The position numbers and the translations under genes were made by a program. Shown in pieces: positions 25,453 through 28,121 of a DNA stretch of 64,000 nucleotides (position 1 is its first letter; each line of letters starts with the position of its first letter). This DNA is from Gemmatimonadota bacterium (GTDB lineage: Bacteria > Gemmatimonadota > Gemmatimonadetes > Gemmatimonadales > Gemmatimonadaceae). The notes beneath the pieces are model-generated. The model was given only the letters and a program-made list of their open reading frames with translations. It was not told where the DNA came from and ran no database searches. The stretch spans positions 1 to 64,000 of the forward strand of contig JAHFCU010000008.1 of the NCBI GenBank assembly GCA_023249305.1, read 5' to 3'.

Positions 25453-25676
25453 GACAGACGATAGCCGGGGCGAGGGTCGTGGGCAACGTGCTTCGGCGCG
25501 TTCCACGCACGCCGTTTGCGCTGTGACGATTCGGATTCGCGTCGTGACTATAAGCGAAAATGACGGTGTTCGGCGAGCTGCCTCGCGAAGCGCGGGAAGC
25601 GCCACGGGAAGACGCCATCACGATGTGATAATCGCGTAAATGACAGCATAGCAATGTGTTATCGCACTGCTAGTTC

Positions 25677-25692
25677 TGGCACGTTTCTCGCA
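25677..25692 (+). promoter_or_regulatory. Sigma-54-like promoter for the STAS gene
   Basis: TGGCACGTTTCTCGCA matches the sigma-54 consensus TGGCACG-N4-TTGCA with one change, and the GG and GC doublets are separated by exactly 10 bases. Transcription would begin near 25703, about 15-20 bases before the riboswitch-like structure, which supports it. No activator gene is visible nearby. Confidence 0.45.
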
Positions 25693-25718
25693 GTACAAGG
25701 GTGCACCAACTGAATGCT

Positions 25719-25812
25719 GCATCACCCGACAAGAGCACACCCGTTGTGAGACGGGGCCGCAAAACCAGGAATCTCAGACGAGCGAGACGGTCCGGTTGCC
25801 GAAGGTGGCGAG
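25719..25812 (+). ncRNA. Probable cyclic-di-GMP-I (GEMM-I) riboswitch
   Basis: The leader of the STAS gene has the order of conserved GEMM-I elements: an outer stem CACC (25723-25726) with GGTG (25804-25807), a first hairpin CCCGTTGTGAGACGGG, the joining segment CCGCAAAACCAGG, a second hairpin with arms ATCTC and GAGAC, and the diagnostic 3' segment GGTTGCCGAAGG. The 5' joining segment AAGAGCACACC differs from the usual CAGGGCAAACC. GEMM-I RNAs bind cyclic di-GMP and control downstream genes. I recognised it by eye; a covariance search is needed to confirm it. The start codon of the STAS gene is about 75 bases further on. Confidence 0.7.
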
Positions 25813-25885
25813 GTCCGATGAAGACCGAGCAGGCGACTGGAGGGAAGAGCGGAAGGCGATGGTCGGACGCAGCGAGGAGGTCACC

Positions 25886-26197
25886 ATGTATCCGCCAATG
25901 CAACCAGATCAGGTCGTCCTGCAGGCCCCCGAACGTCTCGTGTCGGAGCACAGGCTTGACTTCCGGCGTGACGCGCTTGAACGGCTGATGAAGGCTGCTG
26001 CTGAAGGCGCGCAGCGTATCACGATCGACCTGCGCGACACGCGCGAGGTGGACGCGAGCGGCCTAGGCGTGCTCGTGCTTCTGCAGAAGCGCGCGCGGGA
26101 GAGTTTCCTCAGCACGCGCCTGACGCATACGCCTCCCACGGTGCGCCACCTCCTGCACCTCACGCAGCTCGAAGGCCTCTTCGAGTTCGAGGACTGA
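25886..26197 (+). CDS. STAS domain protein (anti-sigma-factor-antagonist type)
   Basis: The 103-residue protein is a single STAS domain: ERLVSEHRLDFRRDALERLMKAAAEGAQRITIDLRDTREVDASGLGVLVLLQKRARE. The segment DASGLG holds the Ser that partner-switching kinases phosphorylate in SpoIIAA/RsbV proteins. It could relay a switch to an anti-sigma factor or another partner; no kinase or sigma gene is adjacent. The start ATG 25886 has a perfect Shine-Dalgarno, which rules out the longer ORF at 25796. A probable cyclic-di-GMP riboswitch and a sigma-54-like promoter precede it, so expression is likely tied to the motile/sessile signal. Confidence 0.88.
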   Translation: MYPPMQPDQVVLQAPERLVSEHRLDFRRDALERLMKAAAEGAQRITIDLRDTREVDASGLGVLVLLQKRARESFLSTRLTHTPPTVRHLLHLTQLEGLFEFED

Positions 26198-26212
26198 TCC
26201 ACGCGGTGCGAT

Positions 26213-26239
26213 CCTCGCGGCGCGATCGGCGCCGCGAGG
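26213..26239 (+). terminator. Hairpin terminator after the STAS gene
   Basis: CCTCGCGGCGC pairs perfectly with GCGCCGCGAGG around a 5-base loop, 16 bp after the STAS stop codon, followed by TTCGCTCT. It has no long T-run but is very stable. Confidence 0.65.
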
Positions 26240-26291
26240 TTCGCTCTGAAGCGCGCGGATCCAGCGCGCGCGCGACGAGCGGCGTTATTCT

Positions 26292-26322
26292 ACCGGATCC
26301 GGCCACTTCGGCCGGGTCCGGT
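26292..26322 (+). terminator. Second hairpin just upstream of ggt
   Basis: ACCGGATCCGGCC and GGCCGGGTCCGGT form a 13-bp stem with one G-T pair and a 5-base loop, followed by TCTCCTTT. It may be a second terminator for the STAS unit or a leader structure that influences ggt, whose start codon lies 20 bp further. Confidence 0.55.
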
Positions 26323-26342: not shown

Positions 26343-28121
26343 ATGACGACCTCTTCTCGCCTCCGCTCACGCGCCGCCGTGCTGGGCGCCCTCGTCCTCG
26401 GGGCCTGCGGGCTGCAGCCTCCGGCCGCCTCACCGCCGCCGATGTACGCCAAGCGCGCGGAGTCAACGCGCGGCATGGTGACCGCGTCGCATGCCGCCGC
26501 CGCGGCGGCCGGGGCGACGATACTCCGCGAGGGCGGCAACGCGATTGACGCCGCGGTGGCCACAGCTTTCGCGCTGGCGGTCGTGGATCCATCACAGACC
26601 GGGCTCGGCGCGGGCGGCGGGTTGCTCGTCTGGCACCACGACGCCAAGCGCGCCGATGCGCTCGACTTCTATGCGCGCACGGGCGCCGACTCCAACTGGG
26701 CGCGCGCGGACACTGCCTCCATGCGCCGGCCGATCAACGGCCGCGCCGCGGGCATTCCGGGCGCGGTCGCTGGCCTGCTTGAAGCACACGGCAGGTGGGG
26801 CAAGCTGCCGCTGCCTCAGGTGATGGCGCCGGCGATCGCGCTGGCGCGCGACGGCTTCATCGTATCGCCGCTGCTGGCGCGGACCTCCGAAAGCTCCCGC
26901 GCCAAGCTCACCGCCGACAGCGCAGCGGCCGCGCTTTTCTTGCCGGGTGGCGTTGCGCTGCGGCCCGGCGACCGGCTCGTGCAATCGCAGCTGGCGCAGA
27001 CGCTGGAGACGATCGCACGCGGCGGACGGGCCGCGTTCTACGAAGGCGAGCTCGCCGAGAAGGCCGTGGCGAAGATGCGGGCGACGGGGAGTCCGGTCAC
27101 CGTGGCGGACTTCAAGGACTATCCCGTCGCGGTGACGCGGCCGTTGTGCACGCCATGGCTTGAGTACACGCTGCTGTCGGCTGGGCCGCCACTCGGCGGC
27201 GCCACGCCACTCGCCGCGCTCAACCTGCTTGCCGCGTCGAACGCGGCGGCACTCGGTTCCCCGACGACGCAGGGCGCGGCCGCCGTGCAGATTGTCGGTG
27301 CAATTCGCGTGGCGGAGAGTGACGTCGGACGCTTCCGCGGCGATCCCGCGTACTTCGGTGTGCCGGCGCGTGGACTCACCAGTCCATCGTTCGCCGCTAA
27401 GCGCGCGGGCGCCATCGCCGCGCTCGACGGCGGCAACGCACCCGCAGCGGGTGATCCGTGGCCCGACGATGCGATCGCGCCGACTGGTGCCTGCGCCGCG
27501 CTCGACGGCTGGGGGGCGAGCCAGCTCGGCGCTGAGAAGGCGTCGGCGCCCCGTGGACCAAGACCCAACGGTGACGATGACGCGTGGGCGGGGTCGAACA
27601 CGACGCACTTCAGTGTCGTGGACGGCGAGCGCAATGCGGTGGCGATGACGTTCACGGTGGGGGTGCTGTTCGGGTCGGGCGTGTATGTGAACGGCTACTT
27701 CCTCAACTCCGGCGGCTCGAACTTCGACAACGCAACCCGCGGGACGAACCGGTATGCCAGCTCCACGATCAATCCAACGATCATCCTGAAGGGCAATGAT
27801 GTTCGTATGGTGGTCGGCGCCGCGGGCTCGCAGTACATCCCGACGTCCACGACGCAGGTGACGTTCCGCCATCTCGCGTTGGGCGAGGATCCGTGGCTCG
27901 CGATCGCGTCGCCACGGCTGCAACCGGCGCAAGGTCGCACCGTCGAGGTGGAGGCTGGCTTTGCCCCCGAAGTCTATGCCATGCTGCGCGCTAAAGGTTA
28001 CTTCCCGCTCTCGCGCGTCGGCGACATCATGTTCGGCGGCGTGCACGCCATCGCGGTCATGAAGGGGAAGCTCATCGGCGTGGCGGATCCGCGGCGGGAC
28101 GGAGCAGCCATTGGATACTGA
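26343..28121 (+). CDS. ggt: Gamma-glutamyltransferase, lipoprotein
   Basis: GGT cleaves or transfers the gamma-glutamyl group of glutathione and similar peptides in the periplasm. The 592-residue precursor has a lipoprotein signal (VLGALVLGACG, lipid-modified Cys22), the N-terminal family segment GGNAIDAAVATAFALAVVDPSQTGLGAGGG, and the autoprocessing site SNTTHFSVVDGERNAVAMTF, where Thr420 would become the nucleophile of the small subunit. The small subunit also has GYFLNSGGSNFDN. The substrate-binding glycine segment and length match the family. Its TGA runs directly into a heptamer repeat. Confidence 0.93.
   Translation: MTTSSRLRSRAAVLGALVLGACGLQPPAASPPPMYAKRAESTRGMVTASHAAAAAAGATILREGGNAIDAAVATAFALAVVDPSQTGLGAGGGLLVWHHDAKRADALDFYARTGADSNWARADTASMRRPINGRAAGIPGAVAGLLEAHGRWGKLPLPQVMAPAIALARDGFIVSPLLARTSESSRAKLTADSAAAALFLPGGVALRPGDRLVQSQLAQTLETIARGGRAAFYEGELAEKAVAKMRATGSPVTVADFKDYPVAVTRPLCTPWLEYTLLSAGPPLGGATPLAALNLLAASNAAALGSPTTQGAAAVQIVGAIRVAESDVGRFRGDPAYFGVPARGLTSPSFAAKRAGAIAALDGGNAPAAGDPWPDDAIAPTGACAALDGWGASQLGAEKASAPRGPRPNGDDDAWAGSNTTHFSVVDGERNAVAMTFTVGVLFGSGVYVNGYFLNSGGSNFDNATRGTNRYASSTINPTIILKGNDVRMVVGAAGSQYIPTSTTQVTFRHLALGEDPWLAIASPRLQPAQGRTVEVEAGFAPEVYAMLRAKGYFPLSRVGDIMFGGVHAIAVMKGKLIGVADPRRDGAAIGY

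Follow-up and report, generated by a model that had tools for sequence, protein, structure and literature searches.

The closest described relatives of the regulatory RNA considered here are the c-di-GMP-I (GEMM-I) riboswitches of Rfam family RF01051, represented by Vc2, and the 3',3'-cGAMP (GEMM-Ib) riboswitches of Geobacter, represented by Gm0970 (PMC8835794). The base at position 20 of the ligand pocket is a selectivity factor in these RNAs and not an absolute filter, and c-di-GMP can be bound by cGAMP riboswitches by means of a protonated adenine (PMC9262584). On the side of synthesis, Hypr enzymes are recognised by Ser or Thr at the base-reading position together with a GGDEF motif (PMC6456294). 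Comparable STAS systems include antagonists of the RsbV/SpoIIAA type, HsbA of Pseudomonas aeruginosa (PMC6482189) and a STAS-associated riboswitch candidate from Streptomyces (PMC11109978). No report of a GEMM riboswitch ahead of a STAS gene was found in the open-licence literature.

In the present work, we have analysed a 64 kb stretch of DNA (64,000 nucleotides; hereafter the window) from a metagenome-assembled genome (2.5 Mb in 83 contigs, 78.6% complete) of the Gemmatimonadota, a phylum of bacteria from soil and groundwater that has received little study. A preliminary description had read one locus of the window as a GEMM-I riboswitch and a sigma-54-like promoter that place a lone STAS gene under direct c-di-GMP control. 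The riboswitch, the sigma-54-type promoter and the single-gene STAS unit stand and are conserved far beyond the window, whereas direct control by c-di-GMP does not follow from a pocket with A at position 20 (A20). Our analyses indicate that the STAS gene is probably doubly gated, by sigma-54 transcription and then by a cyclic-dinucleotide GEMM-I leader that would tune the translation of an antagonist-type STAS protein. The features of the locus are summarized in Table 1.

Table 1. Features of the STAS locus (positions within the window)
Feature	Position	Strand	Remarks
Conserved element, TCAC-N3-GTGA inverted repeat followed by GTAA half-site	25616-25639	+	Genus alignment; candidate enhancer/activator site
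Sigma-54-type promoter, TGGCAC-GTTTC-TCGCA (GG-N10-GC), TGGCACGTTTCTCGCA	25677-25692	+	Kept in 11/11 genus members
Predicted transcript 5' end and conserved leader, CAACTGAA...GCTGC	25703-25720	+	12 nt past the -12 GC; genus-conserved
GEMM-I aptamer	25723-25807	+	P1 25723-25728/25800-25807; P2 with GUGA loop; P3
A at Vc2-G20 equivalent	25734	+	G in RF01051 and RF03167 consensus column
A47 equivalent; C92 equivalent	A25761; C25799	+	Alignment with Vc2 and Gm0970
Possible switching strand, GTCGG and GCAGCG	25862-25874	+	Complements CCGAC (25726-25730) and TGCTGC (25715-25720)
Shine-Dalgarno AGGAGG	25875-25880	+	5 nt before ATG; genus-conserved
STAS-domain protein, 103 aa	25886-26197	+	STAS models; DASGLG with serine at classical phosphorylation position
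Strong hairpin directly after STAS stop	26198-26260	+	-43.9 kcal/mol, z -4.3; terminator-like, without long T run; very stable hairpin at 26213-26239
Second strong hairpin, before ggt	26292-26322	+	-28 kcal/mol, z -5.3; without long T run
Gamma-glutamyltransferase gene (ggt)	26343-28121		Next after STAS; PF01019

A GEMM-I aptamer in the STAS leader

The sole RNA family detected by cmscan in the window at Rfam thresholds is RF01051, which matches positions 25724-25803 of the forward strand with 53.1 bits against a gathering cut-off of 35 (E 1.5e-7 for the 64 kb window), and no second match to this family was found in the host genome (2.5 Mb, 78.6% complete). We also built a covariance model (R1) from the STAS-linked class, the window sequence included, and it places the aptamer at 25721-25808 with 94.5 bits. 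In 17 STAS-linked aptamers, 96.8% of the pair cells are standard in the GEMM-I fold and two-sided changes occupy 33 cells compared with 13.2 in shuffles, with none of 500 shuffles as high; clear compensatory pairs are found in both P2 and P3. The RF01051 score and the covariation of the helices thus bear out the GEMM-I identity proposed in the preliminary description. Assignment to RF03167 (c-di-GMP-I-GGC) was rejected for the window sequence, which scores 53.8 bits against a cut-off of 59; this model is the top-scoring one in Rfam for most STAS-linked aptamers.

The sigma-54-type promoter and its upstream element

The pattern TGGCAC-N5-TYGCW occurs a single time in the window, and the genus/family pattern TGGCACGNTTYTYGC a single time in the whole host genome (both by pattern search). 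Upstream alignment of the genus members reveals that the box is retained in all of them while the flanking sequence diverges. The -12 element here is TCGC, not the textbook TTGC, and the same is true of most copies. The gene rpoN is encoded in 10 of the 11 genus genomes, including the host (PF04552, E 1.5e-64). Beyond the genus, the 350 nt upstream of each of 59 STAS orthologues were scanned, and the best GG-N10-GC site agrees with the consensus at 9 or more of 11 positions in 49 of them, a level reached by only 4.5% of shuffled upstream regions; the GG-N10-GC spacing is constant across these 49 while the middle varies. Hence both the sigma-54-like promoter described earlier, with its TGGCAC -24 element, genus-wide conservation and an encoded rpoN, and the start claimed just upstream of the riboswitch, predicted here at about 25703 and some 20 nt before the aptamer, are upheld. 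An element similar to the conserved inverted repeat, rTCAyNNTGTGA, lies 58-60 nt ahead of the -24 element at L061 and L065, which belong to other genera.

Four extra matches to the promoter pattern are present in the genus, viz. one before groES and the rest in coding-like or unclear context. At the groES locus (L084, genome G010), the box TGGCACGGTTCTCGCA precedes a CIRCE-like repeat and the gene, a hint that a chaperonin gene may be controlled by sigma-54.

Distribution of the promoter and the riboswitch

Each of the 11 genus genomes contains one RF01051 match and one close STAS orthologue, and in the aligned upstream regions conservation extends over the promoter box, the spacing, the aptamer and the Shine-Dalgarno sequence. 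STAS orthologues are present in 77 of 149 relatives, and a GEMM-I aptamer precedes 18 of the 59 that were read outside the genus. The aptamer-bearing genera belong to the same family (g19, g23, g28, g34, and g35) or to another family (g38, g45, g52, g56, g60, g61, and g63); with one further aptamer-STAS leader (L226), the riboswitch is found in about 30 STAS leaders from two families of the order.

In all 18 aptamer leaders outside the genus, the distance from a sigma-54-type site to the STAS match downstream of it is 184-313 nt, compared with mostly 50-135 nt where the aptamer is lacking. As most riboswitch-less STAS orthologues also have a sigma-54-type site upstream, the promoter looks to be the older and wider trait, and the riboswitch lies between promoter and gene. 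A STAS tree of weak resolution requires nine or more gains or losses of the aptamer, and within genus g19 the aptamer is absent at L062 but present at L065. At two loci of family f3 (L157 and L165), sub-threshold matches to the cspA thermoregulator were observed upstream of STAS orthologues without riboswitch and sigma-54-type site.

The STAS protein and its neighbourhood

The protein matches PF13466 (STAS_2; 38 bits) and PF01740 (STAS; 34.2 bits), both over the Pfam cut-offs. Its best NCBIfam match is TIGR00377 (anti-sigma factor antagonist), with 31.5 bits below the curated cut-off of 53.45, and its only PDB match is the anti-sigma factor antagonist TM1442 (E 0.0012). The serine of DASGLG is mostly kept in family f1 (Thr in two members, Cys in one), and family f2 has DSAGLG with alanine instead. 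The acetyl-CoA synthetase gene (acs) is the divergent neighbour of the STAS gene, and the order acs-STAS-ggt is conserved in the genus members read. That the gene forms a single-gene (monocistronic) unit, isolated by the two strong hairpins that follow it, is well supported and agrees with its earlier designation as lone.

No kinase or sigma factor is encoded beside the STAS gene. The STAS fold and the DASGLG serine are consistent with the partner-switch role that the preliminary description gave to the protein, and the missing adjacent kinase speaks against it; we infer this role as the most likely one. A conserved cluster elsewhere in the genus (L119, L121, and L125), in which the neighbours of the STAS gene were identified by eye, consists of a phosphate acetyltransferase-like gene (pta) followed by genes for a STAS protein, an RsbW-like kinase and a GAF-PP2C-like protein, and it is a candidate partner set for the STAS protein. 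This cluster was not found in the host genome at its 78.6% completeness, and a stand-alone HATPase_c_2 protein is present in 8 of the 11 genus genomes and was not seen in the incomplete host genome.

The expression platform

Inspection of the sequence between aptamer and ATG detects no terminator-like hairpin with a T run, and translational rather than transcriptional control is therefore favoured. Pairing of the GTCGG and GCAGCG segments with the 5' leader is predicted by RNAalifold from the 11 genus leaders, in columns that are near-invariant and with a single-sequence p of about 0.3. Directly before the Shine-Dalgarno sequence, five leaders (L076, L145, L162, L164, and L167) have 7-11 nt (GTCGGGC-like) that are complementary to the P1/J1-2 strand, with p of 0.003-0.037 each and a combined p of 0.005 for all 29 leaders; the GTCGG and GCAGCG segments of the host genus occupy the corresponding place and are shorter. 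The arrangement in genus g38 is an OFF design: GCCGAA is immediately followed by the Shine-Dalgarno sequence, which falls within the 3' strand of P1. Duplex energies of 5'-leader against 3'-leader segments gave no average signal relative to shuffles (mean z -0.49), and when P1 was forced in folding, the exposure of the Shine-Dalgarno sequence changed inconsistently in the genus, some rows having scored an upstream GGAGG and not the true site. The ON or OFF direction in the host genus cannot be predicted from sequence and folding.

Cyclic-dinucleotide synthases of the host and its relatives

Asp occupies the guanine-reading position in each of the six GGDEF proteins encoded by the host genome, so that c-di-GMP is very probably made by the host. 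A degenerate DNA pattern search of the 11 genus genomes (the host being 78.6% complete) found no Hypr-type GGDEF; the sole match to the strict Hypr pattern, in genome G007, is a protein that is not a GGDEF. No cGAMP synthase was found in the host genome in searches for Hypr GGDEFs and for CD-NTases, the latter as the SMODS family. Elsewhere in the order, the degenerate pattern detects Hypr-type GGDEFs in 17 or more genomes, a result that suggests cGAMP synthesis in parts of the order outside the riboswitch-STAS genomes; the 17 Hypr genomes and the 30 riboswitch-STAS genomes show no overlap (Fisher p 0.024, uncorrected for shared ancestry). GGDEFs with the Hypr signature ND..GH..GS and the GGDEF motif were recorded in Gemmatimonadales families f1 and f2 at L172-L184, L187, L191, and L198.

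The ligand and alternative interpretations

The pocket bases were placed by alignment with the Vc2 and Gm0970 sequences, and the call at base 20 was confirmed independently against the Rfam consensus lines. The A47 and C92 equivalents are invariant across the 29 STAS-linked aptamers, 27 of which, from two families, have A at position 20 (L065 has G and L068 has C), whereas the majority of the other GEMM-I RNAs read from this order have G20. A20 is the state of the cGAMP riboswitches, and for this reason the direct c-di-GMP control claimed earlier is not established. The leader could instead be a 3',3'-cGAMP riboswitch in which A20 has switched the selectivity, so that the STAS gene would answer to cGAMP and not to c-di-GMP. 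Besides the pocket, the STAS-linked aptamers share with Gm0970 a GNRA loop on P2, here of the GYGA type, and a short UCUC/GAGA P3; base 20 is a known, though not absolute, selectivity factor (PMC9262584), and other Gemmatimonadales possess Hypr GGDEFs. However, the pattern search found a Hypr GGDEF in none of the 30 riboswitch-STAS genomes, the readable GGDEF signatures of three near-complete genus genomes all have Asp or Asn at the site in question, an SMODS cyclase is present in just 1 of the 11 genus genomes, and the same gene is preceded by a G20 aptamer at L065 and a C20 aptamer at L068. With A20 in the aptamers and no Hypr GGDEF found in the riboswitch-STAS genomes, the pocket points to cGAMP and the enzymes to c-di-GMP, which is somewhat favoured. 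We infer that the ligand is a cyclic dinucleotide, reasonably likely c-di-GMP, possibly but with clearly lower probability cGAMP, and only with a small chance another compound.

It is rather doubtful that the aptamer is real and the STAS protein is not a partner-switch component but an MlaB-like or other structural STAS protein. The single gene without kinase or sigma factor alongside, a weak match to an MlaB model and the alanine in place of the canonical serine (DSAGLG) in the other family are compatible with such a role, whereas no Mla transport genes were recognised nearby in the conserved acs-STAS-ggt synteny, the DASGLG serine is retained in most of the protein's own family, and the best curated match is to the anti-sigma factor antagonist superfamily. 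Improbable to a greater degree is the proposal that a regulator other than sigma-54 binds at the conserved TGGCAC-N5-TCGC box and that transcription starts from a sigma-70-type promoter; although the -12 element is mostly TCGC and the 5' end is predicted, the GG-N10-GC spacing held in 49 of 59 orthologues through a varying middle, the encoded rpoN, and the occurrence of the same box at the right distance before other aptamers of the class and before groES in a relative all argue for sigma-54. A decayed riboswitch with no regulatory effect might account for the several orthologues without an aptamer, even inside one genus (L062 versus L065), but the compensatory changes in P2 and P3 and the near-invariant pocket bases over two families make this reading highly improbable.

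Related aptamers beyond STAS genes

A search of the 149 genomes with model R1 yields 44 matches that score 74 bits or more, of which about 30 are STAS-linked. Among the others, L221, L224, L225, and L232 each combine an A20 aptamer with a sigma-54-type site of its own, located 58-78 nt before it, which indicates that the pairing of sigma-54-type sites with A20 GEMM-I aptamers is not confined to STAS genes. The next frame at L221, L224, and L225 encodes a small secreted lipoprotein with HExxH, two of which have no Pfam match, and the frame downstream at L232 looks like a relative read out of frame. It is conceivable, though unlikely, that these loci form an order-wide Gemmatimonadales regulon, in which sigma-54-type promoters and A20 GEMM-I leaders before STAS regulators and the small HExxH lipoprotein would sense some cyclic dinucleotide different from c-di-GMP, the product of an enzyme not recognised as a Hypr GGDEF or SMODS protein.

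Other GEMM-I RNAs of the order were also observed. L213, L214, L215, L216, L219, and L220 are of a distinct form (CAGAGCAAAGCC or AAGAGCAAAGCC) with A at position 20; it stands in tandem with a second GEMM-I in several genomes, all of its genomes have Hypr GGDEFs, and the frames readable behind L213-L216 look like surface proteins with Ig-like repeats. In genome G135, a STAS-type A20 aptamer (L209) precedes a putative lipoprotein of 229 aa, and the STAS orthologue of this genome (L139) has no aptamer. In genome G012, a sigma-54-type site accompanies a class member with G20 (L233), which precedes a membrane protein of 437 aa that resembles the N-terminus of a GGDEF protein (L005).

Proposed mechanism and comparison with known systems

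In the double gating that we propose, RpoN holoenzyme, presumably together with an enhancer-binding protein at the TCAC-N3-GTGA element, would decide whether the STAS gene is transcribed, and the GEMM-I aptamer of the resulting 5' leader would bind a cyclic dinucleotide. P1 would compete with the pairing of its 5' strand to the sequence adjoining the Shine-Dalgarno site, and the ligand would in this way set STAS translation. The product is most likely an anti-sigma-factor antagonist-type partner, and it possibly works with the RsbW-like kinase and the PP2C phosphatase that genus members encode at another locus. If this is true, three layers of control, namely activation by sigma-54, a riboswitch for a cyclic dinucleotide and a STAS partner protein, are wired into one small gene, a combination for which no precedent was found in the open-licence literature. 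As A20 is conserved where no Hypr GGDEF was found, it becomes testable whether one pocket base is predictive of the natural ligand outside Geobacter, and the varying occurrence of the aptamer at the same sigma-54/STAS locus provides natural experiments in riboswitch gain and loss and in changing expression platforms.

The components of this locus are known and their wiring is unreported in the open-licence literature; the RNA adds a member to a known riboswitch class. With the c-di-GMP-I riboswitches of RF01051 it shares the fold, the P1-P2-P3 layout, the A47 and C92 equivalents and the position in a 5' leader, and it differs from them in having A where Vc2 has G20, in its short P3 and in its STAS target behind a sigma-54-type promoter. 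It differs from RF03167 in the same base (A versus a consensus G) and in GCAAA versus GCGAA in J2/3. The Geobacter riboswitch Gm0970 (PMC8835794) has the same A20/A47/C92 pocket, a GNRA (GCGA) loop on P2 and a short P3, but the present RNA occurs in another phylum before another target gene, in genomes where no Hypr GGDEF was found by pattern search. The protein has the STAS fold and phosphorylatable serine motif of the RsbV/SpoIIAA-type antagonists, and the link between partner switching and c-di-GMP is paralleled by HsbA, an antagonist with ties to the diguanylate cyclase HsbD (PMC6482189); unlike in these systems, there is no adjacent kinase, and the link would be an RNA in the STAS mRNA and not a protein contact. 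The Streptomyces candidate (PMC11109978) is likewise a structured leader ahead of a STAS gene, but it is another RNA and is not described as a GEMM fold.
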